A stretch of DNA of 34,784 nucleotides, from positions 1-34,784 of the forward strand of contig JALHRB010000041.1 in the NCBI GenBank assembly GCA_022841665.1, given 5' to 3'. The position numbers and the translations under genes were made by a program. Shown in pieces: positions 26,821 to 34,784 of the stretch. The notes beneath the pieces were generated by a model. That model was given only the letters and a program-made list of their open reading frames with translations. It was not told the origin of the DNA and made no database searches. This DNA comes from Pseudolabrys sp. (GTDB lineage Bacteria > Pseudomonadota > Alphaproteobacteria > Rhizobiales > Xanthobacteraceae). Position 1 is the first letter of the stretch. Each line of letters starts with the position of its first letter.

Positions 26821-27047
26821 TCGGTGACGTGGTCATAGCGCAACTCCCCGAACGCGACGCTGATTTCGACGGGCGGCTCGCAGGCCGCGCAGATGAGGGC
26901 CGCGACGAACGGCTTTGCCGGCAGGCCCCGGCAGACGACGGCGAACTCGTCGCCGTGGCATTTCGGGCAGCCGAGAAAGCCCGCGTCTTCGCCGCCGTTG
27001 CGCACGCGGTATGCGTCCAGGTTTACGATCTTGCCTTGGTTCGCCAT
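26817..27047 (-). CDS. Small zinc-ribbon protein
   Basis: This 76-aa protein has CPKC (27-30) and CAAC (53-56), a treble-clef or ribbon-type zinc site, with VNLDAYRVRNGGEDAGF before it. It begins in a TGATG overlap with the gene upstream. Such proteins are common in phage early regions and bind nucleic acid or proteins. The specific role is unknown. Confidence 0.6.
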   Translation of the reverse strand: MANQGKIVNLDAYRVRNGGEDAGFLGCPKCHGDEFAVVCRGLPAKPFVAALICAACEPPVEISVAFGELRYDHVTE

Positions 27048-27241
27048 CACCCGTTCTCCCCATCGGCCCAACGTTCCAGCATTTCGCGCGCCTCGCCCTC
27101 GCGGTTGCTGCGGATTAGGTGGCCGGCGGTCGCCATCGGCAGGCCGGCGGCGCATGCGTCGGCCAGCAACACGAGCGCGGCCTTCTGGTAGTCCGTGAGC
27201 AGCAGCAGCACGGCGCGGGCTGCGTATTCCAGCGGCGTCAT
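27047..27241 (-). CDS. Small helical protein, unknown
   Basis: This 64-aa protein is Leu/Ala-rich and helical: YAARAVLLLLTDYQKAALVLLADAC and AGHLIRSNREGEAREMLERWAD. It starts in an ATGA overlap (27238-27241). It looks soluble and amphipathic rather than membrane-spanning. It could be a small DNA mimic or partner protein; no family is recognised. Confidence 0.5.
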   Translation of the reverse strand: MTPLEYAARAVLLLLTDYQKAALVLLADACAAGLPMATAGHLIRSNREGEAREMLERWADGENG

Positions 27242-27780
27242 GCATCCGCCCCCATGAGTTCGGGGTAATTCTCGGGCTGTAGGTTCGGCCCGAGGTCATC
27301 GCGCGGCACTTGCCCAACCGGCGGCAGGCGAGGCGGCATGATGTCGGCGCCGGGGAACATATCCTTGATGTCCGACACCAGCGGGATTGCCCGGATGAGC
27401 GTGGCGATCTCGGCGACGGTCCACACGCTGTAGTGGCGCCGCTTGTCCGCCACGGCGCGCAGTTCCAGCGCCTGCTTGTGCGTGGCGTCCAGGGCGACGG
27501 CGAACACCTTGCCCTTGTCCCACTCGGCTTCGGCAACGGCGCCCGGCAGCGGCTCGTGGCCGCGGGCGCGGGCGTCTGCCGCCATCGCTTGCCAGCCGCG
27601 TGCGATGGACGCCCGGACTTCTTCCCAGGTCTTGCCAGCGGGCGGGTAGTCCGCCGCCAGCAGGTCCAGGGCGCCCTGGAACCTCGCCGCCAGGTCCGGC
27701 GAGACGATCAGCGGCAGGCGGTTGATGCCCCATTCCCGCTCGTGCTTGTTCGCGATGAGGTCGAGTTCGGCGGGGGTCAT
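27238..27780 (-). CDS. Phage protein of unknown function
   Basis: This 180-aa protein starts MTPAELDLIANKHEREWGIN and ends in a Pro-rich part (DIMPPRLPPVGQVPRDDLGPN). The middle is helical (TWEEVRASIARGWQAMAADARARG, HYSVWTVAEIATLIRAIPLV). It follows the iteron-bearing 55-aa ORF in ATGA overlap, so it belongs to the replication message. It may be a helicase partner, but only the position suggests it. Confidence 0.5.
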   Translation of the reverse strand: MTPAELDLIANKHEREWGINRLPLIVSPDLAARFQGALDLLAADYPPAGKTWEEVRASIARGWQAMAADARARGHEPLPGAVAEAEWDKGKVFAVALDATHKQALELRAVADKRRHYSVWTVAEIATLIRAIPLVSDIKDMFPGADIMPPRLPPVGQVPRDDLGPNLQPENYPELMGADA

Positions 27781-27944
27781 CTGGCGATGTCCAGGCCCGT
27801 AGCGGGACGGGACAAACGGGTAATCGCCAAAGGGCGATTAACCCGATTTCTGTCCCGCGTCAACCCGCCACTAATGGCCCCGGGACATACCGGGACATGT
27901 CCCGCCAATGTCCCGCATGTCCCGCTAAATTGCCGATTGTTCAT
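27777..27944 (-). CDS. 55-aa ORF spanning the iteron cluster
   Basis: The frame opens in an ATGA overlap with the helicase gene stop (27941-27944) and closes in an ATGA overlap with the next gene (27777-27780). The product (MNNRQFSGTCGTLAGHVPVC...) has segments encoded by the GGGACAT repeats. Both exact junctions favour translation, but the peptide looks unstructured, and its main job may be to couple translation across a DNA element. Confidence 0.4.
   Translation of the reverse strand: MNNRQFSGTCGTLAGHVPVCPGAISGGLTRDRNRVNRPLAITRLSRPATGLDIAR
27802..27925. repeat. Iteron cluster 2, ATGTCCCGC in both orientations
   Basis: Plus-strand copies of (A/C)TGTCCCGC lie at 27850, 27897, 27908 and 27917; reverse copies CGGGACAT lie at 27881 and 27891, and weaker GGGAC words at 27804 and 27810. 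Two facing copies form a perfect 14-base palindrome at 27891-27904. With cluster 1 about 200 bases away, this resembles an iteron-type replication origin or a multi-site operator. Confidence 0.65.
27817..27845. terminator. 12-bp hairpin next to the iterons
   Basis: CGGGTAATCGCC (27817-27828) pairs with GGCGATTAACCCG (27833-27845) around AAAG, with one bulged base. On the minus strand it is followed by TTT only. It may be a weak terminator for the replication message or a structural part of the putative origin. Confidence 0.4.
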
Positions 27945-30100
27945 GTTCTTGTTGCCTCCTCTGTCAGCCACGCTTTGTCATTGAAAACAGCAACTTGGCC
28001 GGCAGAGCGCAGCGCGCTGACAGCACGTTGGAACGCTTTCCGCTTGGCTTCGGGGCTGTCGGCGTGGCTGCGCGCGTAAAATTCCTGGCGCCACAAATCG
28101 ACTGGGACGGCCCGGACATTTGGAGGAATGTCCCGCAAATGTCCCGCTGATGTCCCGCTATGTCCCGCTGTTGTCCCGCTCGCGATGATGGCTTCGCAGA
28201 GGGCGTCGAAGGCGATGCGCGCCCCTTCCGGAATGCGGGCGGGGCATGCCGATACGGCGGCGTCAGAAGCCTCCACAACGCAGCTTGTGACCGGCTTGCC
28301 GCGGCGGTTCTTCCCTAGCTCCACTTGGCGCAGCGTAAAGACGAAGTTGCCTTCGATCTCTAACTCTCGCTGTTTGGTGACCTTCGCGACGGAGGGGCTA
28401 TCGTTGTCGGCGCGGCTGATCTCGATCTCGGTATCGGTCGCGGCGCGCAGCAGGCTATGGCCGCGGGCGCCCTGCGCCTGGTCTTTCCCCGAGTGATGGA
28501 TGAAGCAGATATGCGCCTTGAGCGCCTGCCGGATGTAATCGGCGCTGGCGACAAGGGCGCCCATGTCATCGGGGGCATTCTCGTTTCCGCCGGCCAGCGC
28601 CCTGGACAGGGTGTCTATGACGATCAGCTTGACCGGCACGCCCATGTGTTCGGCCGCCGCCTTGACGGCTTCCACGAGCCTTTCGCGGTCAGCGTTGGGG
28701 TCTAAAAGGTTGATGGCGACAGGCACCACGGCAAACGGCACCTCGACGCCTTCTGGGCCGTGCTCCCGCTTGAAGGCGGCAATCCGGTTGCTGATGCCGT
28801 GGCCGCCCTCCAGCGCGCAGTAAACCACGCCGCCGGGCTCAATCTCTTTCCCACGCCACGCCCGGCCCGTCGCCACATGCATGGCGAGGTCGGTCATGAA
28901 GAAGGTTTTGCCGCAGTTGGACGGGCCATAGACCACAGACATGGCCGTCTCGATCAGCAGCCCCTCAACGAAGTCTGCCGCGTCCAGATTGGCCTTGATG
29001 TCCTCGAAGAAGATGAGCGGAAGGGGCGACACCGGCCCCTCAGGCTTTCCCGGCAGCACCTCGCCCGTCTCCGGGTCTATGCTGAAGGTCTGCCGCGACA
29101 TGATGCCGAACGGATCGCGCTGCGGCGCGGCCTGGCGCTCGGCCACCTCCCGCGGCGCGGCCTTGCCGTCATCAAACGCCTTGCGCAGCGTCCGTTGAGC
29201 GTGGCCGTAGTCTTCGCAGCGGTGCCGGATATCGGCCAGCGCGCCAGACAGGGCGGCGAAGGCCGGCGCCTCGGCCAGATGCCCGCCGGAGACCAGGCCG
29301 CCGATGCTGTATGCCGCCTTGTTGAGTGCGTGATGCTTGCCGCCCTCGCCAGCGTTGCGGATGGCGTTGCATTCCGCCTCCATCGCCGACACGCCATAGC
29401 GCGAGCCGTCGCCGTCATAACGGAAAGGCGCGGCATAGGCTGGCGCCGGTGTGGGCTCGGCCTTCTTGCGCTCGGGCCGGCCGATGGCTTCGCCGTCCAG
29501 ATCAGGGCAGAGGTCTATGGCCCGCCCTTCGACGGGGATAACCTCATGGGCGGTGGAACCGTGCAGCGCGCCGAAATAGTAGGACTGCGACAGCGTAAAG
29601 CTTTCCGCCGCTAGCGCGCCCAGGAACAGCCCGTTGACCCGCGCCATGAGCCGCGCCCGGTCGGCGGGCGGCAGGCTTTCGCTGGTCGGGCACAGCACGC
29701 GCCAGCGTGGCGCGTCGGCGCGGTGCGAAGGGCTGGTGTATAGGATGGCGGCGACGTCGGCATTGCCGAGGATGCGGCGGGCACGCTCTAGCGTGATGTC
29801 CTCGCCGTCGTAGTCGGCTTCGATGCCGTTGATCTCGATCATGTTCGCGTCGTGGCGAAAGCTGCCGCGCAGGCTTTGCGCTTCTCCGAACGTCGCCAGC
29901 TTTACCCACGGCAACGCGGCCTTATCCGCGGCGCGGGTGTCGCGCAGGTTCGGGATGATGGCGCGGAGGGACAGGGTTCGGGGGTGCTTGCGATCGGCCG
30001 CAGCGCCCTCGAAGAAGGTCATAGCCAACGGCCGATCGAGGGCAGACGCACCTAGGGCGTTGCTTGCCGTGGCCTGCGTATTCGATAGGCTGTCTGGCAT
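27941..30100 (-). CDS. Replicative primase-helicase (PrimPol-like + RepA/AAA)
   Basis: This 719-aa protein should unwind and probably prime phage DNA. Residues 25-200 resemble a PrimPol-type domain: GIEADYDGED (about 93-101) with catalytic acidic residues and LYTSPSHRADAPRWRVLCP (about 120-138). Residues about 380-560 are a RecA-like helicase: VYGPSNCGKTFF (Walker A, about 390-401), VVYCALEGGHGISNR, KLIVIDTLSRALAGGNENAPDDMG (Walker B, about 491-513) and FIHHSGKDQAQGARG, as in hexameric RepA-type helicases. The C-terminal part (about 628-719) looks like a winged helix, and its reading frame carries iteron cluster 1. ATG 30100 is used; a TTG 3 bases upstream is possible. Confidence 0.8.
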   Translation of the reverse strand: MPDSLSNTQATASNALGASALDRPLAMTFFEGAAADRKHPRTLSLRAIIPNLRDTRAADKAALPWVKLATFGEAQSLRGSFRHDANMIEINGIEADYDGEDITLERARRILGNADVAAILYTSPSHRADAPRWRVLCPTSESLPPADRARLMARVNGLFLGALAAESFTLSQSYYFGALHGSTAHEVIPVEGRAIDLCPDLDGEAIGRPERKKAEPTPAPAYAAPFRYDGDGSRYGVSAMEAECNAIRNAGEGGKHHALNKAAYSIGGLVSGGHLAEAPAFAALSGALADIRHRCEDYGHAQRTLRKAFDDGKAAPREVAERQAAPQRDPFGIMSRQTFSIDPETGEVLPGKPEGPVSPLPLIFFEDIKANLDAADFVEGLLIETAMSVVYGPSNCGKTFFMTDLAMHVATGRAWRGKEIEPGGVVYCALEGGHGISNRIAAFKREHGPEGVEVPFAVVPVAINLLDPNADRERLVEAVKAAAEHMGVPVKLIVIDTLSRALAGGNENAPDDMGALVASADYIRQALKAHICFIHHSGKDQAQGARGHSLLRAATDTEIEISRADNDSPSVAKVTKQRELEIEGNFVFTLRQVELGKNRRGKPVTSCVVEASDAAVSACPARIPEGARIAFDALCEAIIASGTTAGHSGTSAGHLRDIPPNVRAVPVDLWRQEFYARSHADSPEAKRKAFQRAVSALRSAGQVAVFNDKAWLTEEATRT
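28128..28179. repeat. Iteron cluster 1, five phased ATGTCCCGC copies
   Basis: Direct plus-strand copies start at 28128, 28139, 28150, 28160 and 28171 (the last begins TTG). Spacing is 11, 11, 10 and 11 bases, one helical turn each, so all sites face the same side of the DNA. They lie inside the 3' end of the helicase gene and encode its TAGHSGTSAGHLRD segment. Lambda likewise has its origin iterons inside O. Confidence 0.75.
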
Positions 30101-30134
30101 CAACGCTTGAGCCTCGCCGGTTAGGCGTTGGTGT

Positions 30135-30175
30135 GCCGGCGCGCGTCTGGCCTGGAAAACGAGGCGCGCGCCGGC
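30135..30175. terminator. Strong GC hairpin before the helicase gene
   Basis: GCCGGCGCGCG (30135-30145) and CGCGCGCCGGC (30165-30175) are perfect complements with a 19-base loop; inner C-G and T-A pairs extend the stem after one wobble. It fills most of the 82-base gap between the SSB-like gene and the helicase start. No U-tract follows on either strand, so it may be an attenuator or RNA-stability element more than an intrinsic terminator. Confidence 0.5.
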
Positions 30176-30182
30176 GGCTAGG

Positions 30183-30926
30183 CTAGAACGGCAGCGGCTC
30201 GGCCATGTCCGCAGTCATGCTTGGCGCCATGCCGTTCGCAGCGACAGGCGCCGCGGCAGGCTCCGGCGGATAGGTCACGGCGTGCTGCTGCACGGGCGGC
30301 CGGGTGCCAGGCGCCGGGCAGGTGCGGTCGCCGAAGATCGCCGGGCGGTCGATCCACTGGACGATCTTCCACTCGGGCGCGTAGTTCTTGGTCGTGCCGT
30401 GCTTGCCGCTCGTCTCCAGCGTCTTCGTGCTGGCGTGCTGCACGACGGGGATCAGCCCCCGCGCAGCCTCCGGCGCGGCGCTGAACGCCTTGTAGAGTTC
30501 TTCCATCGTGGCGAGCACGCCCTTCGCCGTGTGCGCGAAGTAGCGCGGCTCTGCGTCGCCGAAGACCTTGCCTGCCAGCTTGATGCGGAAGCCCGGCAGG
30601 AACGCCTTGCGGGCCGCCTCGCCCTGCTTGGCCGGCGTCGTCATCTCCTGCGGCTGCGGCGGATAGACCGTCGCATCGCCTACGAACGGCACCAGGATGA
30701 AAGCCGGCGGCGAGGCGAACTTGATGTAGCCGGCTTCCATCGAACCGAAGTCGAAGGCTGCCGTGAGCCCGCGGTAGGGCTCGCCCGCGTTGTCGCCCCA
30801 GCGGCCGTCTTCGCCCTGGACGCGATCCACGTTGGTGAAGAAGCCCGACCGCGCGTCATACTGCACGCGGGCGAGGAAGGAACCGCTGTCAGTGCCGGCG
30901 GTGCTGCCGGGGATGCCGAAAGCCAT
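30183..30926 (-). CDS. Possible ssDNA-binding protein
   Basis: This 247-aa protein starts MAFGIPGSTAGTDSGSFLARV and has a beta-rich core (SGFFTNVDRVQG, AGYIKFASPPAFILVPF, RIKLAGKVFGDAEPRYF, EWKIVQWIDRPAIFG). The last 60 residues are Pro/Ala-rich and flexible, ending DMAEPLPF. A flexible tail ending in acidic residues and PF is the partner-binding tip of SSB proteins. It lies directly before the helicase gene, which suits such a role. AAAGG lies about 10 bases before the ATG. I do not see a clear OB-fold signature, so this remains a suggestion. Confidence 0.45.
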   Translation of the reverse strand: MAFGIPGSTAGTDSGSFLARVQYDARSGFFTNVDRVQGEDGRWGDNAGEPYRGLTAAFDFGSMEAGYIKFASPPAFILVPFVGDATVYPPQPQEMTTPAKQGEAARKAFLPGFRIKLAGKVFGDAEPRYFAHTAKGVLATMEELYKAFSAAPEAARGLIPVVQHASTKTLETSGKHGTTKNYAPEWKIVQWIDRPAIFGDRTCPAPGTRPPVQQHAVTYPPEPAAAPVAANGMAPSMTADMAEPLPF

Positions 30927-30944
30927 TGTCTCAACCTTTCATCG

Positions 30945-31199
30945 TCACGACAGATTACCGGCGTCGTGTGCCCGGGCTTGCCGCTCGGCGATCATCGCCA
31001 GAGCGGTGCGCTCCACATGCGGCGACATCTCGCGATGCCGCAGCAATTCCATTCGCTTGTGCAGCCGATCGGCCAGCGCCGGCAGCGCGCCGATGTCCGC
31101 TTGCTCGATAGCGATTTCCCACGCTTCCATGCGCACGTCGTCGCCGATCGCGAGCGCGCGCATTGCAGCGTCTGCATCGGGGATGCGTAGGAGGCTCAT
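30945..31199 (-). CDS. Small helical phage protein
   Basis: This 84-aa protein (MSLLRIPDADAAMRALAIGDD...) is almost all helix and charged (RMEAWEIAIEQADIGALPALADRLHKRMELLRHRE). The ATG at 31199 makes an ATGA overlap with the nuclease gene stop. It might be a partner of the nuclease or the SSB-like protein. The family is not recognised. Confidence 0.5.
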   Translation of the reverse strand: MSLLRIPDADAAMRALAIGDDVRMEAWEIAIEQADIGALPALADRLHKRMELLRHREMSPHVERTALAMIAERQARAHDAGNLS

Positions 31200-31537
31200 C
31201 GCGCCATCCCCCATCCCCGCACGGCGGCAACGGCGTCATCCACGCTGCGGACCACGGCGACGCGCAACTGGTCGCGCTCCATGCCTTCGATGTGGTCCAC
31301 CTGCGCGTCGGACAGCCTGCCCTTCGCGGCCTTGACCTCCAGGAACCCGACCTGCCCGCGGGCATCCCAGCAAATCAGGTCCGGGAACCCCGCGACCATG
31401 CCTTCCTGCTTGAGCATGCGGCCGGCGACCAAGGATCGCTTGCCGGCGTTCGGCACATGGCGCGACCGCACGCCGAGCATCGTCAGCGCGGAGCGGATCG
31501 CGATCTGGATGTTGCGTTCGGGGGATGCGCGCTTCAT
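31196..31537 (-). CDS. VRR-NUC domain nuclease
   Basis: This 113-aa protein is a single VRR-NUC fold, a PD-(D/E)XK nuclease type. GFPDLICWD gives Asp53, FLEVKAAKGRLSDAQ gives Glu67-x-Lys69 and Gln79, and the N-terminal helix (ERNIQIAIRSALTMLG) is also typical. Phage versions are thought to process replication or recombination intermediates. It starts in an ATGA overlap with the small HTH gene and ends in one with the next gene, so it belongs to the early message. Confidence 0.85.
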   Translation of the reverse strand: MKRASPERNIQIAIRSALTMLGVRSRHVPNAGKRSLVAGRMLKQEGMVAGFPDLICWDARGQVGFLEVKAAKGRLSDAQVDHIEGMERDQLRVAVVRSVDDAVAAVRGWGMAR

Positions 31538-31737
31538 GCCCCGCGCCTCGCCGCACGCTTAAGCCGCACGCACGACACGCCATAGCGGCCCAGCGTGCAG
31601 TAGAGCGCGCGCTTCTCGATGCCGAGCATGGCGGCGGTGCGCTTGGCGCTAAACCGCAGGATGCACTCGCACACGGCGGTCAGCAGTTCGCGCGACCAGC
31701 GCAGGCGCCGCAGCGGGCGGCCGTCAAAGGTGGTCAT
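31534..31737 (-). CDS. Small HTH-like protein
   Basis: This 67-aa protein (MTTFDGRPLRRLRWSRELLT...) has helices ELLTAVCECILRF, SAKRTAAMLGIE, RALYCTLGRYGV. The last two form a good helix-turn-helix pair ('AKRTAAMLGIEKRALYCTLGRYG'-like, similar to small Fis/resolvase-type HTHs). It is basic (many Arg). The ATG at 31737 overlaps the stop of the GcrA-like gene (ATGA), so the longer frame is rejected. It may bind DNA as a regulator. Confidence 0.55.
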   Translation of the reverse strand: MTTFDGRPLRRLRWSRELLTAVCECILRFSAKRTAAMLGIEKRALYCTLGRYGVSCVRLKRAARRGA

Positions 31738-32300
31738 GCCGCATCCCCCTTCGGTCGCACGGCGAGCGTGTGGTGCTTGGCGCAATAGGGCAGCCGGCCG
31801 CCATCGCGGGGTGCGTCACAGAAGATCCCGGTCGGGCGGCCCTCATGGCCCCACATCGGCCACAGGCAGGTGTGCCCCGGCGCACGTGGCGCCAGCACCA
31901 GCGGCGGCTCGCGCAGAACCGGCGGCAGCGGCCCGCGCAGTTCGCCAGGCGGCCGTCCGCCAAGGCGCGGCGGGGTTGCCTGCCACCGCTCGCGACGCCG
32001 CGTCGTGCGGGTGCCAGGCGTGTGCGCGCGCTTCGCTGCGGCCTCGCTGTGCGGCGAGACAAAGCCGGCCGTGCGCCACGAGCCGTCCGGGGCCGAGACG
32101 ACGCGGGATGAGATGCCGCGCTGCACGACGATCAGCCCGGCCCGCTCTGCGCCGCGGATCATCTCAGAAGCAGCGGACGGCGAGCGGAGTTCGAACTTAC
32201 CGACCACGGCGTCATTGGTCGGGCACACGTCGCCGGCCATCGCTGCGGCGCGGATAACGCCGACCAGCTTTTGCAGGCGTTCGATGCTGTAGTTGGTCAC
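31734..32300 (-). CDS. Winged-helix protein with GcrA-like C-terminal domain
   Basis: This 188-aa protein has an N-terminal winged-helix-like domain (residues 1-70: LQKLVGVIRAAAMAGDVCP, NDAVVGKFELRSPSAASEMIRGAERAGLIVV, then a wing QRGISSRVVS). A basic Pro-rich linker follows, then residues 142-182 (GHTCLWPMW ... GIFCDAP ... LPYCAKHHTLAVRP). That last part closely matches the C-terminal sigma-binding part of GcrA, where C-W-P, F-C-G and P-Y-C-x-x-H are conserved (here Cys145, Cys161, Cys173, His176). GcrA activates promoters with methylated sites through sigma70. The usual GcrA N-terminal HTH is replaced here. The methyltransferase gene lies just upstream. Domain identity is from motif; function is inferred. 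Confidence 0.65.
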   Translation of the reverse strand: MTNYSIERLQKLVGVIRAAAMAGDVCPTNDAVVGKFELRSPSAASEMIRGAERAGLIVVQRGISSRVVSAPDGSWRTAGFVSPHSEAAAKRAHTPGTRTTRRRERWQATPPRLGGRPPGELRGPLPPVLREPPLVLAPRAPGHTCLWPMWGHEGRPTGIFCDAPRDGGRLPYCAKHHTLAVRPKGDAA

Positions 32301-32455
32301 GTGCGCGCCTCCGAAAAGGCACGCCGGGCGGTATGAGGGCCGCCCGGCGCGAGGTTAGGGATGTCCAGAAGCGGACACGTCACACCTAGACGTGTCGCCG
32401 GCACATGCCGGCTCGTGTGGGTGTCCGAAGACACCGCATCTCGTGTGTTGCTCAT
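32297..32455 (-). CDS. 52-aa ORF with ATGA junctions, unknown
   Basis: The frame starts in an ATGA overlap with the methyltransferase stop (32452-32455) and ends in an ATGA overlap with the GcrA-like gene (32297-32300). The product (MSNTRDAVSSDTHTSRHVPA...) is hydrophilic and has no recognisable fold. Nearly half of the coding DNA forms three hairpins. It may be a leader-like coupling ORF, with ribosome movement deciding whether the hairpins form. Confidence 0.45.
   Translation of the reverse strand: MSNTRDAVSSDTHTSRHVPATRLGVTCPLLDIPNLAPGGPHTARRAFSEART
32374..32435 (-). promoter_or_regulatory. Three tandem perfect hairpins
   Basis: On the minus strand GGTGTC-TTCG-GACACC (32435-32420) comes first, with a stable UUCG loop closed by C-G. 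GCCGGC-ATGT-GCCGGC (32412-32397) follows, and directly after it GACACGT-(9)-ACGTGTC (32396-32374). The first and third share GTGTC/GACAC words. All lie inside the 52-aa ORF between the methyltransferase and GcrA-like genes. They could act as an RNA attenuator or as binding sites. Confidence 0.6.
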
Positions 32456-33318
32456 GCGACTGCATCCCGGAAGATGTCGCCCTGCCGCTGCGCGTCGGCG
32501 ATGCGGCGAAGGGCGATGTCGAAGTAGCGTTCTTCGATCTCGATCCCGACGAAGGGATGCCGCATCTGCACGGCGGCGACGCCGGTGCTGCCGCTGCCCA
32601 TGTAGGGATCGAGGATCACACCGCCGGGCGGGACGCGCAGCTTGTCGATTGTGAAGCGCATCACCGAGATGGGCTTCTGCGTCGGGTGGTCGCCACCTTC
32701 CGCGACAAGGACCGCGCGCGGCACGGTTATGCGCCGCGTCGCCTGCCGGCGATTTGTCCAAGCCATCTCAACGTCAGCAAGGCTGAAGTCGGTTTGGCCC
32801 TTATCCCAAATTAGCCACCCCATCGAAGGCGGCAGGCAATCGGCGAAGTAGTTTCCGCCCCATAGCGCGACGTAATCCGCTGCAGCGCCAAGCCACGACA
32901 GCCACGCTGCAGGCGGGCGCTCGCGATCCCATGCAACGTCTTCGCGGGTTTGCCGCCAGCCGTGAGACGCGCTGAAGCCCCCGCTGTTGCCGTGGTCTAT
33001 CCCATAGGGCGGATCGGAAATCACCGCCGCCGGCCGCGCGAGCGTCGGCGCGATGAGCCTGCAATCACCTAGGTAGAGCGTCGCGAGGCCGATCTGTTCG
33101 CGCCGCTTCCACGGCCCCGGATACTGCGGGTCTTCGTGCGGCTGATCAGGGACGGCGGCGGGGTGCTCGATGAGGGGCCGAGCCCCCGCCGCCGTGGGCG
33201 CGCTGCCGTTGCGAAGTGGCCCGCGCGCGCCGTCTGGTGTGGTCGGCGCGGTCGGAGGCTTCCGGTCGCCCCCGCGCCGGGTAGTAGCCTGGGCGGCCGG
33301 ATCAGGAGCCGCGCGCAT
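32452..33318 (-). CDS. Beta-class DNA methyltransferase (N6-A or N4-C)
   Basis: This 288-aa enzyme methylates DNA with SAM. After about 65 Pro/Ala-rich residues, LYLGDCRLIAPTLARP leads to VISDPPYGIDHGN (catalytic DPPY, about 101-104). The target-recognition stretch follows, then GGDHPTQKPISVMRF and VILDPYMGSGSTGVAAVQ (SAM-binding, about 244-261). DPPY before the SAM motif is the beta-class order, as in CcrM. It lacks CcrM's C-terminal extension, so a GANTC target is not assured. No restriction enzyme lies nearby, so it is an orphan enzyme, used to protect phage DNA or mark promoters. It overlaps DUF2303 by one base (TGATG). Confidence 0.85.
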   Translation of the reverse strand: MRAAPDPAAQATTRRGGDRKPPTAPTTPDGARGPLRNGSAPTAAGARPLIEHPAAVPDQPHEDPQYPGPWKRREQIGLATLYLGDCRLIAPTLARPAAVISDPPYGIDHGNSGGFSASHGWRQTREDVAWDRERPPAAWLSWLGAAADYVALWGGNYFADCLPPSMGWLIWDKGQTDFSLADVEMAWTNRRQATRRITVPRAVLVAEGGDHPTQKPISVMRFTIDKLRVPPGGVILDPYMGSGSTGVAAVQMRHPFVGIEIEERYFDIALRRIADAQRQGDIFRDAVA

Positions 33319-34130
33319 CAGGCGCTCGGCGCCCGACCGTCCAGCACGGACACGTTGCTTCCGCGCTCGATCTTCGCGACCACGTCCTCCAGGACGCGGC
33401 CCATCAGATCGTCCAGCCGCTCCAGCTTCACGCCTAGCCGAAGCTTCCCGTCCTCCAGACGGTAGCGGAAACGCGCTGGCACCGCGTAGGGCGCGTTGCC
33501 TTGGAGCGGCGAGAGGCTGAGGGTGATCGTCTCCGGCACGTCGATTTGGCCGGCGCCGACCTTGGCTTCGGTGTTCTCGATGTTCTCGAATTGCACCTGA
33601 CCGTTGGACAAGCGAACGGCGCGACGGAAGTTGGTGGTGCGCGTCGCCTGGAACAGCGTGGCGATTTCCAGCATGACCGCGCCGGCCGGCGAGACGATGT
33701 CGGCGATGTTCTCCTCGATGAACTCGGCGAACTCGGTCTGGCCCATCAGCCGGCCATCAATACCCTTCCACCGCGTCCACTGCGGCGTCGGACGGAACTC
33801 GATGCGGGCGCGGAAATCGCCCCACCCCGGGCCGTCCTTGCCGTTGCCGTTCAGCACCGCCTCGATGGCGGGCTTGTCTGGATTGCGGTCGAGATAGATT
33901 GCGACGTTGCCGGCGCCTTCATTGTCGCGGATGACCTGATTGAAACTCGCCGCGTCAAAGACGGTGACGACGCCCTTCTTGCGCGGGGGCGCCGGGAGGT
34001 AGCTCCGCAGGTCCACGATCTCGCCATTGGCCTGCACGAGGATCGGTGCTTCAGCCGGATTGGCGATGGTGAGGGCGACGCCTTCGCGGGCGGCATCGAT
34101 CACTGCCTGCATGTCGTTGTTGTTCGGCAT
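33318..34130 (-). CDS. DUF2303 (YfdQ-like) phage protein
   Basis: This 270-aa protein begins MPNNNDMQAVIDAAREGVA and contains VVDAAS-like FDAASFNQVIRDN, YLDRNPDKPAIEAVLNG, GWGDFRARIEFRPTPQWTRWKG and MGQTEFAEFIEENIADI. These are the characteristic blocks of DUF2303/YfdQ proteins found in early regions of many proteobacterial phages. Function is unknown; its place beside nuclease and recombination-type genes suggests DNA metabolism. A GTG at 34145 in a GTGA overlap would add five residues; the ATG at 34130 has GAGG nearby and matches relatives better. Confidence 0.8.
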   Translation of the reverse strand: MPNNNDMQAVIDAAREGVALTIANPAEAPILVQANGEIVDLRSYLPAPPRKKGVVTVFDAASFNQVIRDNEGAGNVAIYLDRNPDKPAIEAVLNGNGKDGPGWGDFRARIEFRPTPQWTRWKGIDGRLMGQTEFAEFIEENIADIVSPAGAVMLEIATLFQATRTTNFRRAVRLSNGQVQFENIENTEAKVGAGQIDVPETITLSLSPLQGNAPYAVPARFRYRLEDGKLRLGVKLERLDDLMGRVLEDVVAKIERGSNVSVLDGRAPSA

Positions 34131-34141
34131 GTCCGCGGCCC

Positions 34142-34501
34142 TCACGCCAGCGCCCGCGCGGCCGAAGCCGAAGGGCCAATGTCGCGAACAGGTTCAGCAG
34201 CACCGATCTCCCGCAGCGGTAGGCTGGGCTGCTTCGGGTCCTGCCGGATCAGATTGTTCTCCGGCGTCACAAAGAAGATGCTGCCGCCCTTGGTCGGCTT
34301 CGGCTTCGTGATCTTGAGTTCGTCCATCACCATCACGGCGCCGTCGCCATGCGGCTTGACGGCGATGGTGAGGGTCAACTTGCCGCCCTTGCCCTCGCTC
34401 GCGACCGCTTCCACGATCTCGTTCAAGGCTTCGGTCAGTTCTTCATGCGTGAGCCCGTTGCGGTGCTCGCGCAGCAAATCCAGGAACGGCCTGGCGCTCA
34501 T
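34142..34501 (-). CDS. Small early phage protein
   Basis: This 119-aa protein starts MSARPFLDLLREHRNGLTHEEL with a helical region (LTEALNEIVEAVASEGKGG). LTLTIAVKPHGDGAVMVMDELKITKP follows, then SIFFVTPENNLIRQDPKQPSLPLREI. This pattern is seen in phage proteins commonly encoded directly before DUF2303 genes. ATG 34501 has AAGGAGA upstream, so the TTG at 34507 is not needed. Role unknown, perhaps linked with DUF2303. Confidence 0.6.
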   Translation of the reverse strand: MSARPFLDLLREHRNGLTHEELTEALNEIVEAVASEGKGGKLTLTIAVKPHGDGAVMVMDELKITKPKPTKGGSIFFVTPENNLIRQDPKQPSLPLREIGAAEPVRDIGPSASAARALA

Positions 34502-34503
34502 AC

Positions 34504-34784
34504 TCAAGTCTCCTTCTGGCTTGTCGCGCGAGCCCGGCGCGACGCGGGTTTCTGGAGAAGCGCGACCGCCACCACGCCGGCCCCGAACACCACGAGCGCG
34601 CTGGGCTCGCTGACGGGCGTTCCAACGCGGGGAGTTTCCAGCGCAGGTCGCGGCGACGGCAGCGACGGCGGCTCCAGCATGCGGTCACCGACCACGAGCG
34701 CGGCCGGGATGGACGCGCACACGATCAGCGGCGCGACGATGCGGCGGATTGGCCCGATGCTGGCGCCGGAGCCGATGGCACGCG
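34504..34784 (-). CDS. PEP-CTERM-like secreted/membrane peptide (5' cut)
   Basis: The frame runs in from the right edge, so the start is missing. It shows a first hydrophobic segment (IRRIVAPLIVCASIPAALVV) that looks like a signal peptide, a Pro-rich linker (LEPPSLPSPRPALETPRVG), and an end very like a PEP-CTERM sorting signal: VSEPSALVVFGAGVVAVALL, then a basic cluster (RRAR). In PEP-CTERM systems a Glu-Pro motif, a transmembrane helix and an Arg cluster direct sorting by exosortase. A phage copy may use this, or may just be a two-TM peptide. Confidence 0.5.
   Translation of the reverse strand, partial: RAIGSGASIGPIRRIVAPLIVCASIPAALVVGDRMLEPPSLPSPRPALETPRVGTPVSEPSALVVFGAGVVAVALLQKPASRRARATSQKET

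Follow-up and report, generated by a model that had tools for sequence, protein, structure and literature searches.

A predicted phage regulator that pairs a GcrA-type sigma-interacting domain with a LexA-like head

The window analysed here is the whole of contig C41 (JALHRB010000041.1, 34,784 bases), from a Pseudolabrys draft genome in 125 contigs. Family profile searches find terminase, portal, head, tape-measure and tail-fibre families among its open reading frames (ORFs), and also primase-helicase, VRR-NUC, DUF2303 and methyltransferase families; by these structural and replication matches, the window is a tailed phage or prophage. Our subject is a 188-amino-acid (188-aa) protein of its early region, called the regulator below, with GTG as its start codon, preceded by GGAGG. 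The gene and its two recognizable parts are as follows.

31734-32300, minus strand: 188-aa regulator, with a LexA-type head, a flexible linker and a GcrA sigma-interacting domain (SID), from the ORF and profiles
32067-32300, minus strand: head, residues 1-78, a LexA-like winged helix by sequence profile (the predicted structure of the head is poor)
31743-31877, minus strand: SID, residues 142-186 (CLWP, FC, YCAKH), from profile matches

The tail and the head of the regulator

GcrA (PF07750; structures 5YIX, 7YE1 and 7YE2) and the regulator are alike in consisting of two domains joined by a linker, and they have in common the C-terminal SID, with its motifs CxWP, FC and YCxxH. The initial annotation of this DNA, made by reading the sequence, had claimed the sigma-binding part of GcrA for the C-terminus and proposed checking it with a GcrA family profile. 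That check succeeds in part, as Pfam model PF07750 matches residues 142-186 on profile positions 108-150 (E 3.7e-4), but at 21.3 bits, under the gathering cut-off of 26.9. The claim itself is borne out by an SID profile made from 12 other sequences, the window protein excluded, to which the tail scores 34.1 bits (best of 20,000 shuffles, 14.3) and whose significant PDB matches are GcrA only. The tail also keeps C145, W147, P148, C161, Y172 and C173, which do not vary in 54 aligned SID rows, a constancy that is partly one of choice because the rows were found through a DNA pattern for those residues. GcrA works at m6A promoters as an activator that binds domain 2 of sigma70. We predict that the tail binds sigma70; this and all later statements on binding and regulation extend what the available part of PMC7403470 reports for GcrA.

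The head is another matter. The DNA-binding domain with which GcrA recognizes methylated promoters occupies its residues 1-45 (PMC7403470, available part). It is not detected in the regulator, which has the LexA-like head instead, and a profile of it has no significant match among the ORFs of the window (best E 0.095). A profile (A6) of the head plus five cellular winged-helix segments ranks LexA chains first, seven of them at E 1.3e-5 to 1.1e-4 with 1lea_A the best, a signal that comes partly from those five segments. In 297 genomes of the order the head also matches a segment of long cellular frames, which we take to be HerA-like ATPases, at 25-37% identity (best E 4.1e-6). LexA and the head thus have a winged-helix sequence profile in common, while the self-cleaving C-terminal protease part of LexA has no Pfam match in the regulator at E <= 0.1 and the SID stands in its place. 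The initial annotation was right to see a different winged helix at the N-terminus, LexA-type by profile, and its suggestion of an altered DNA specificity gains support because this head differs from that of GcrA.

Related proteins in other phages

Among 385 genomes of the class, a single other match (50.3 bits) spans both head and tail: a protein encoded in a prophage on contig G699:C23, 32% identical to the regulator (34% in the match itself, over residues 12-180). It recurs at 100% identity in a 47.8-kb IMG/VR virus contig (L422), and primase and terminase lie near it (by eye). The heads of the two members are homologous (48.8 bits, against 14.9 for the best of 3,000 shuffles), and the tail of the second scores 24.8 bits to an SID profile built without either member (best of 20,000 shuffles, 15.1). 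A profile of the two proteins finds no further full-length match in the 385 genomes.

Phage proteins that carry a GcrA SID are already known, and among them the architecture of the regulator is unusual. Phage homologues of GcrA such as phiCbK gp222 are described in the available part of PMC3556154, where they are interpreted as switching on host DNA replication genes; Atu_ph08 gp5 and phiLM21-like prophages likewise offer a phage protein that has the GcrA SID in common with the regulator. By eye, the homologues of phiCbK, Bajun and Ssp-JY42 keep the GcrA-like helix-turn-helix (HTH), unlike the regulator, and in those of Milano, 7-7-1 and RHph_X2_24 the HTH head has diverged. We found no report in the open-licence literature of a GcrA SID joined to a LexA-like head.

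Searching with DNA patterns for the SID core gave at least 140 viral loci. Among the 140 listed, 135 contain an SID ORF (137 ORFs in total), and dropping 15 with a cut 5' end left 122 for analysis. A GcrA-like HTH scores at least 15 bits in 99 of the 122, is weak in 6 and is missing from 17, among the matches listed; some of these 17 are little more than an SID. Proteins of this last kind occur in L276 (1438-2028, plus strand, directly 3' of a PF01555 methyltransferase), L216 (2840-3232, plus), L293 (4058-4570, plus), L413 (1462-1740, minus) and L414 (1357-1686, plus). The frames in L413 and L414, from two further genomes, are 93 and 110 aa long and have the regulator-like core CLWPMW.H. L198 (2003-3430, minus) and L199 (2213-3376, minus) hold viral frames of 476 and 388 aa that end in an SID and in which the profile shows no GcrA-like HTH; their N-terminal part looks by eye DnaA-like plus an HTH, and each locus has a second SID ORF. 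The head of the regulator matches nothing better than E 0.17 among the N-terminal parts of the 122 viral ORFs listed. A Pfam scan of these ORFs plus the regulator names MarR_2 in three, MarR in two and LexA_DNA_bind in one (E 6.2e-4), as counts that do not say which members are meant; some other winged-helix fusions may therefore exist.

A canonical SID query of named phage records returns 37 at E <= 1, some of them weak (E up to 0.4): by label, 26 are from Caulobacter, 5 from Agrobacterium, 2 from Synechococcus, and one each from Pseudanabaena, Brevundimonas, Rhizobium and an uncultured Caudoviricetes. Pseudanabaena phage Pam5 (L063/L411) and Synechococcus phage Ssp-JY42 (L064), both labelled cyanophages, encode GcrA-like proteins with an SID. 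To our knowledge the SID is a mark of alphaproteobacteria, and the real hosts of these two might be heterotrophs in the cultures.

Neighbouring genes and GANTC content

The order of genes on the minus strand is phrog_204, DUF2303, methyltransferase, leader, regulator, a 67-aa ORF, VRR-NUC, two ORFs and primase. The elements next to the regulator are these.

32452-33318, minus strand: beta-class DNA methyltransferase, 288 aa, from motif order and PF01555
32301-32451, minus strand: structured leader containing inverted repeats as well as three dyads of the TGTCC/GGACA type, from folding and a repeat scan; overlaps a doubtful 52-aa ORF (32297-32455)
31534-31737, minus strand: 67-aa ORF overlapping the regulator stop (ATGA), HTH-like by eye only
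31196-31537, minus strand: VRR-NUC nuclease, encoded by the gene that follows in the early operon, from a family match

The initial annotation had both the regulator and the methyltransferase at their correct coordinates, and its call of a beta-class enzyme holds. DPPY (motif IV) ahead of motif I is the beta-class order, and the product of 32452-33318 has DPPYG before DPYMGSGS and matches PF01555 at 68.5 bits, above the cut-off; by motif and family it is a beta-class DNA methyltransferase (N6_N4_Mtase). By its score it is not CcrM, reaching 46 bits on CcrM model NF050803 against a cut-off of 830. The host genome has its own CcrM-like gene (599 bits over 4-349 of 350, also under this Caulobacter cut-off). 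The nearest annotated relatives of the phage enzyme are in Pseudanabaena phage Pan3 (49.5%) and Rhizobium phage 16-3 (45.2%). The phage GANTC methyltransferases PhiLM21_p027, Phi2LM21_p21 and PhiOC_p213 resemble it as early-region enzymes of alphaproteobacterial phages, but PhiLM21-type enzymes are reported to carry NPPW/F/Y motifs (PMC5537653, available part) where the window enzyme has DPPY. Its first 68-70 or so residues (33109-33318, minus strand) are unmatched in most relatives, best-row alignments beginning at 69-76, and the true start may lie further in.

A gap of 151 bases separates methyltransferase and regulator. The stretch 32295-32460 folds far better than shuffled sequence (z -4.54), and the leader holds a perfect 10-bp inverted repeat plus GACACGTC-N7-GACGTGTC. 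By eye, its hairpin has a perfect stem of 10 bp, after which comes TGCCTTTTC; a consensus scan of 27000-34784 does not list it as a terminator. Three TGTCC/GGACA-type dyads fall in the leader (32362-32377, 32374-32396 and 32421-32434) and one elsewhere in the window (16846). The 52-aa ORF is open, yet its codon-position GC is nearly flat (0.64/0.64/0.68), against third-position values of 0.77-0.90 in 11 other ORFs measured whole. Flat codon-position GC, strong fold and inverted repeats together make a structured leader more likely than a gene, so that of the "structured 52-aa ORF" of the initial annotation the structure stands and the gene is doubtful.

The 67-aa ORF was considered as the missing DNA-binding domain of a split GcrA, and rejected: the profile of that domain gives 2.6 bits (E 4.9) in its frame. 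It has no relative in the set of GcrA DNA-binding domains (phmmer) and no family match, and among the ORFs of loci L063-L151 and L182-L422 phmmer returns the window's own copy only.

Do SID and methyltransferase genes belong together? We hand-picked for length 50 SID records (32-94 kb) from the viral loci, and compared them with 27 terminase-relative records of 12-55 kb, sets that are not matched for kinship. PF01555 is rarer in the SID records, 23/50 against 20/27 (Fisher p 0.03). In 8 of the 23 contigs with both, however, no more than 1 kb separates the two genes, where random placement, which takes no account of early-gene clustering as such, would give 1.7 (permutation p 5e-5), and in 12 the distance is at most 3 kb (3.5 expected); for this test the SID start of L271 was set by hand and one of the two SID ORFs was used for L198 and L199. 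Conversely, starting from relatives of the window methyltransferase, an SID ORF lies near in 3 of 80 viral loci (flanks up to 4 kb), all three among the 14 listed first, and, in the single named genome found, that of Neoroseomonas alba, an SID frame stands just before the relative. Over whole records, PF07750 turns up three times among 23 methyltransferase records, once at a score below cut-off, and never among 27 terminase-relative records. The fetched stretches of Pan3 and 16-3 have no SID ORF by the related methyltransferase. By the distance counts, the record counts and these two stretches, there is a tendency to be neighbours rather than a fixed pair.

The window has one GANTC site (8664) where its dinucleotides predict 127 (z -11.2). 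Among palindromes of 2+2 bases with 0-5 between and 3+3 bases with 0-4 between, GANTC is the most depleted; next is GTAC (0 against 47 expected). Chromosomal loci of the order have observed/expected ratios of 0.27-0.46 among the matches listed (low-ratio loci), and the 4 kb around the host CcrM-like gene hold 9 sites against 16.2 expected. Terminase-relative loci (79) have a median ratio of 0.13, chromosomal loci (84, of which 3 are under 0.05) one of 0.36, and the SID loci, taken in three groups, medians of 0.30-0.35. GANTC loss extends beyond the carriers of an SID and is not special to SID phages; head type and GANTC loss show no correlation (Spearman 0.045, p 0.64, in 114 viral SID loci of at least 4 kb). 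Loss of GANTC has already been published for pelagiphages (PMC9516812, available part).

The initial annotation had suggested that regulator and methyltransferase may form a methylation-linked switch, on the model of GcrA and CcrM. Since one GANTC remains where 127 are expected, a switch reading methyl-GANTC on the DNA of this phage is very unlikely; the proposal is further undercut by a methyltransferase that is not CcrM and by the undetected GcrA DNA-binding domain. It is weakened too by the virus contig of the second member (L422), which has no PF01555 match at E <= 0.01, other methyltransferase families not having been searched there.

What the regulator may do

From the SID and LexA-like profiles, the lack of a detectable GcrA DNA-binding domain, the one further member and the GANTC loss, we infer, with about even confidence, that the regulator is a phage-encoded transcription factor that tethers sigma70 to operators of its own, without GANTC methylation. 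The LexA-like head would bind operators of the phage, for which the leader dyads (32362-32434) are possible candidates, and a flexible linker would connect the head to the GcrA-type SID, which would dock on domain 2 of host sigma70. In this way the regulator would bring host polymerase to the early promoters of the phage, or stabilize it there, with no reading of GANTC methylation. The methyltransferase next to it is most probably an enzyme in its own right that happens to share the early region.

Several results weigh against this proposal. The head alone matches the LexA DNA-binding domain at E 0.089 (Pfam) and 0.13 (PDB), and LexA is not among the 50 VIA-align rows listed for the head, which was modelled without homologues. 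Foldseek with the predicted structure gives no PDB match at E <= 0.001, GcrA coming ninth (E 1.1). In place of the GDP loop of canonical SIDs (WPxGDP in GcrA), the regulator has WPMWGHEGRP; the second member lacks the WP motif, and pairwise the tails of the two are marginal (13.0 bits, with one of 3,000 shuffles higher). A consensus scan of 27000-34784 finds no sigma70-type promoter, the role of the leader dyads as putative operators is a guess, and a winged helix could equally repress.

Repression, indeed, might be its whole function, the head acting on phage promoters and the tail serving as a folding or dimer unit only. The LexA-like head, the dyads in the regulator's own leader and a weak hit (E 0.011) on phrog_362, a transcriptional repressor, all fit, but a tail that retains the SID residues invariant in the 54 rows (rows partly chosen by those residues) makes this quite improbable. 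We regard it as unlikely, though less so, that the regulator is a competitor of GcrA, occupying sigma70 domain 2 in place of the host protein and reading no methyl-GANTC, so that the host GcrA regulon would be lowered in infection. Competition for sigma70 would be one form of the hijacking of host cell-cycle control that the initial annotation had raised as its other possibility. An SID without the GcrA DNA-binding domain is what such a competitor would look like, and SID-only or nearly SID-only proteins do occur in viral contigs; a pure competitor, however, would not need the DNA-binding-type head that both members conserve.

The methyltransferase could instead set a mark other than GANTC, to be read by the head. 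The excess of close neighbours (8 of 23 against 1.7 expected) leaves room for such a functional tie, as do the SID genes by its relatives in Neoroseomonas alba and three viral loci. We think it improbable all the same, given that the second member's contig has no PF01555 match, that PF01555 is not enriched in SID contigs, and that the related enzymes of Pan3 and 16-3 have no SID ORF in the stretches fetched. An ordinary phage mimic of GcrA, activating methylated GANTC promoters of the host, has precedent in homologues such as phiCbK gp222 (PMC3556154, available part), but without a GcrA DNA-binding domain by profile it seems highly improbable.

With somewhat less than even confidence, we suggest that alphaproteobacterial phages use the GcrA SID as a portable part for gripping polymerase, found with GcrA-like HTH heads, nearly alone and with unrelated heads such as the LexA-like one, and giving methylation-independent sigma70 activators or GcrA competitors. 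The architecture of the regulator suggests that phages can reuse the polymerase grip of GcrA as a plug-in part without DNA-methylation sensing. In two lineages, phage or prophage, the sigma-binding half of GcrA is present and its methyl-reading half is not; sigma binding and methyl reading therefore seem separable. Two questions are thereby opened to direct testing: can the SID by itself carry alphaproteobacterial sigma70 to a new operator, and do phage proteins that are nearly SID-only work by displacing the GcrA of the host?

The draft genome that holds the window (G000) shows no full-length gcrA, compared with a GcrA match above cut-off in 56 of 60 relatives; this absence is probably a gap in the draft. 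Another of its contigs (L001, G000:C38:36653-36910) encodes a protein that matches the DNA-binding part of GcrA (PF07750 3-85, 32.4 bits) and shows no SID match. It mirrors the window regulator, which has the SID without that DNA-binding part.
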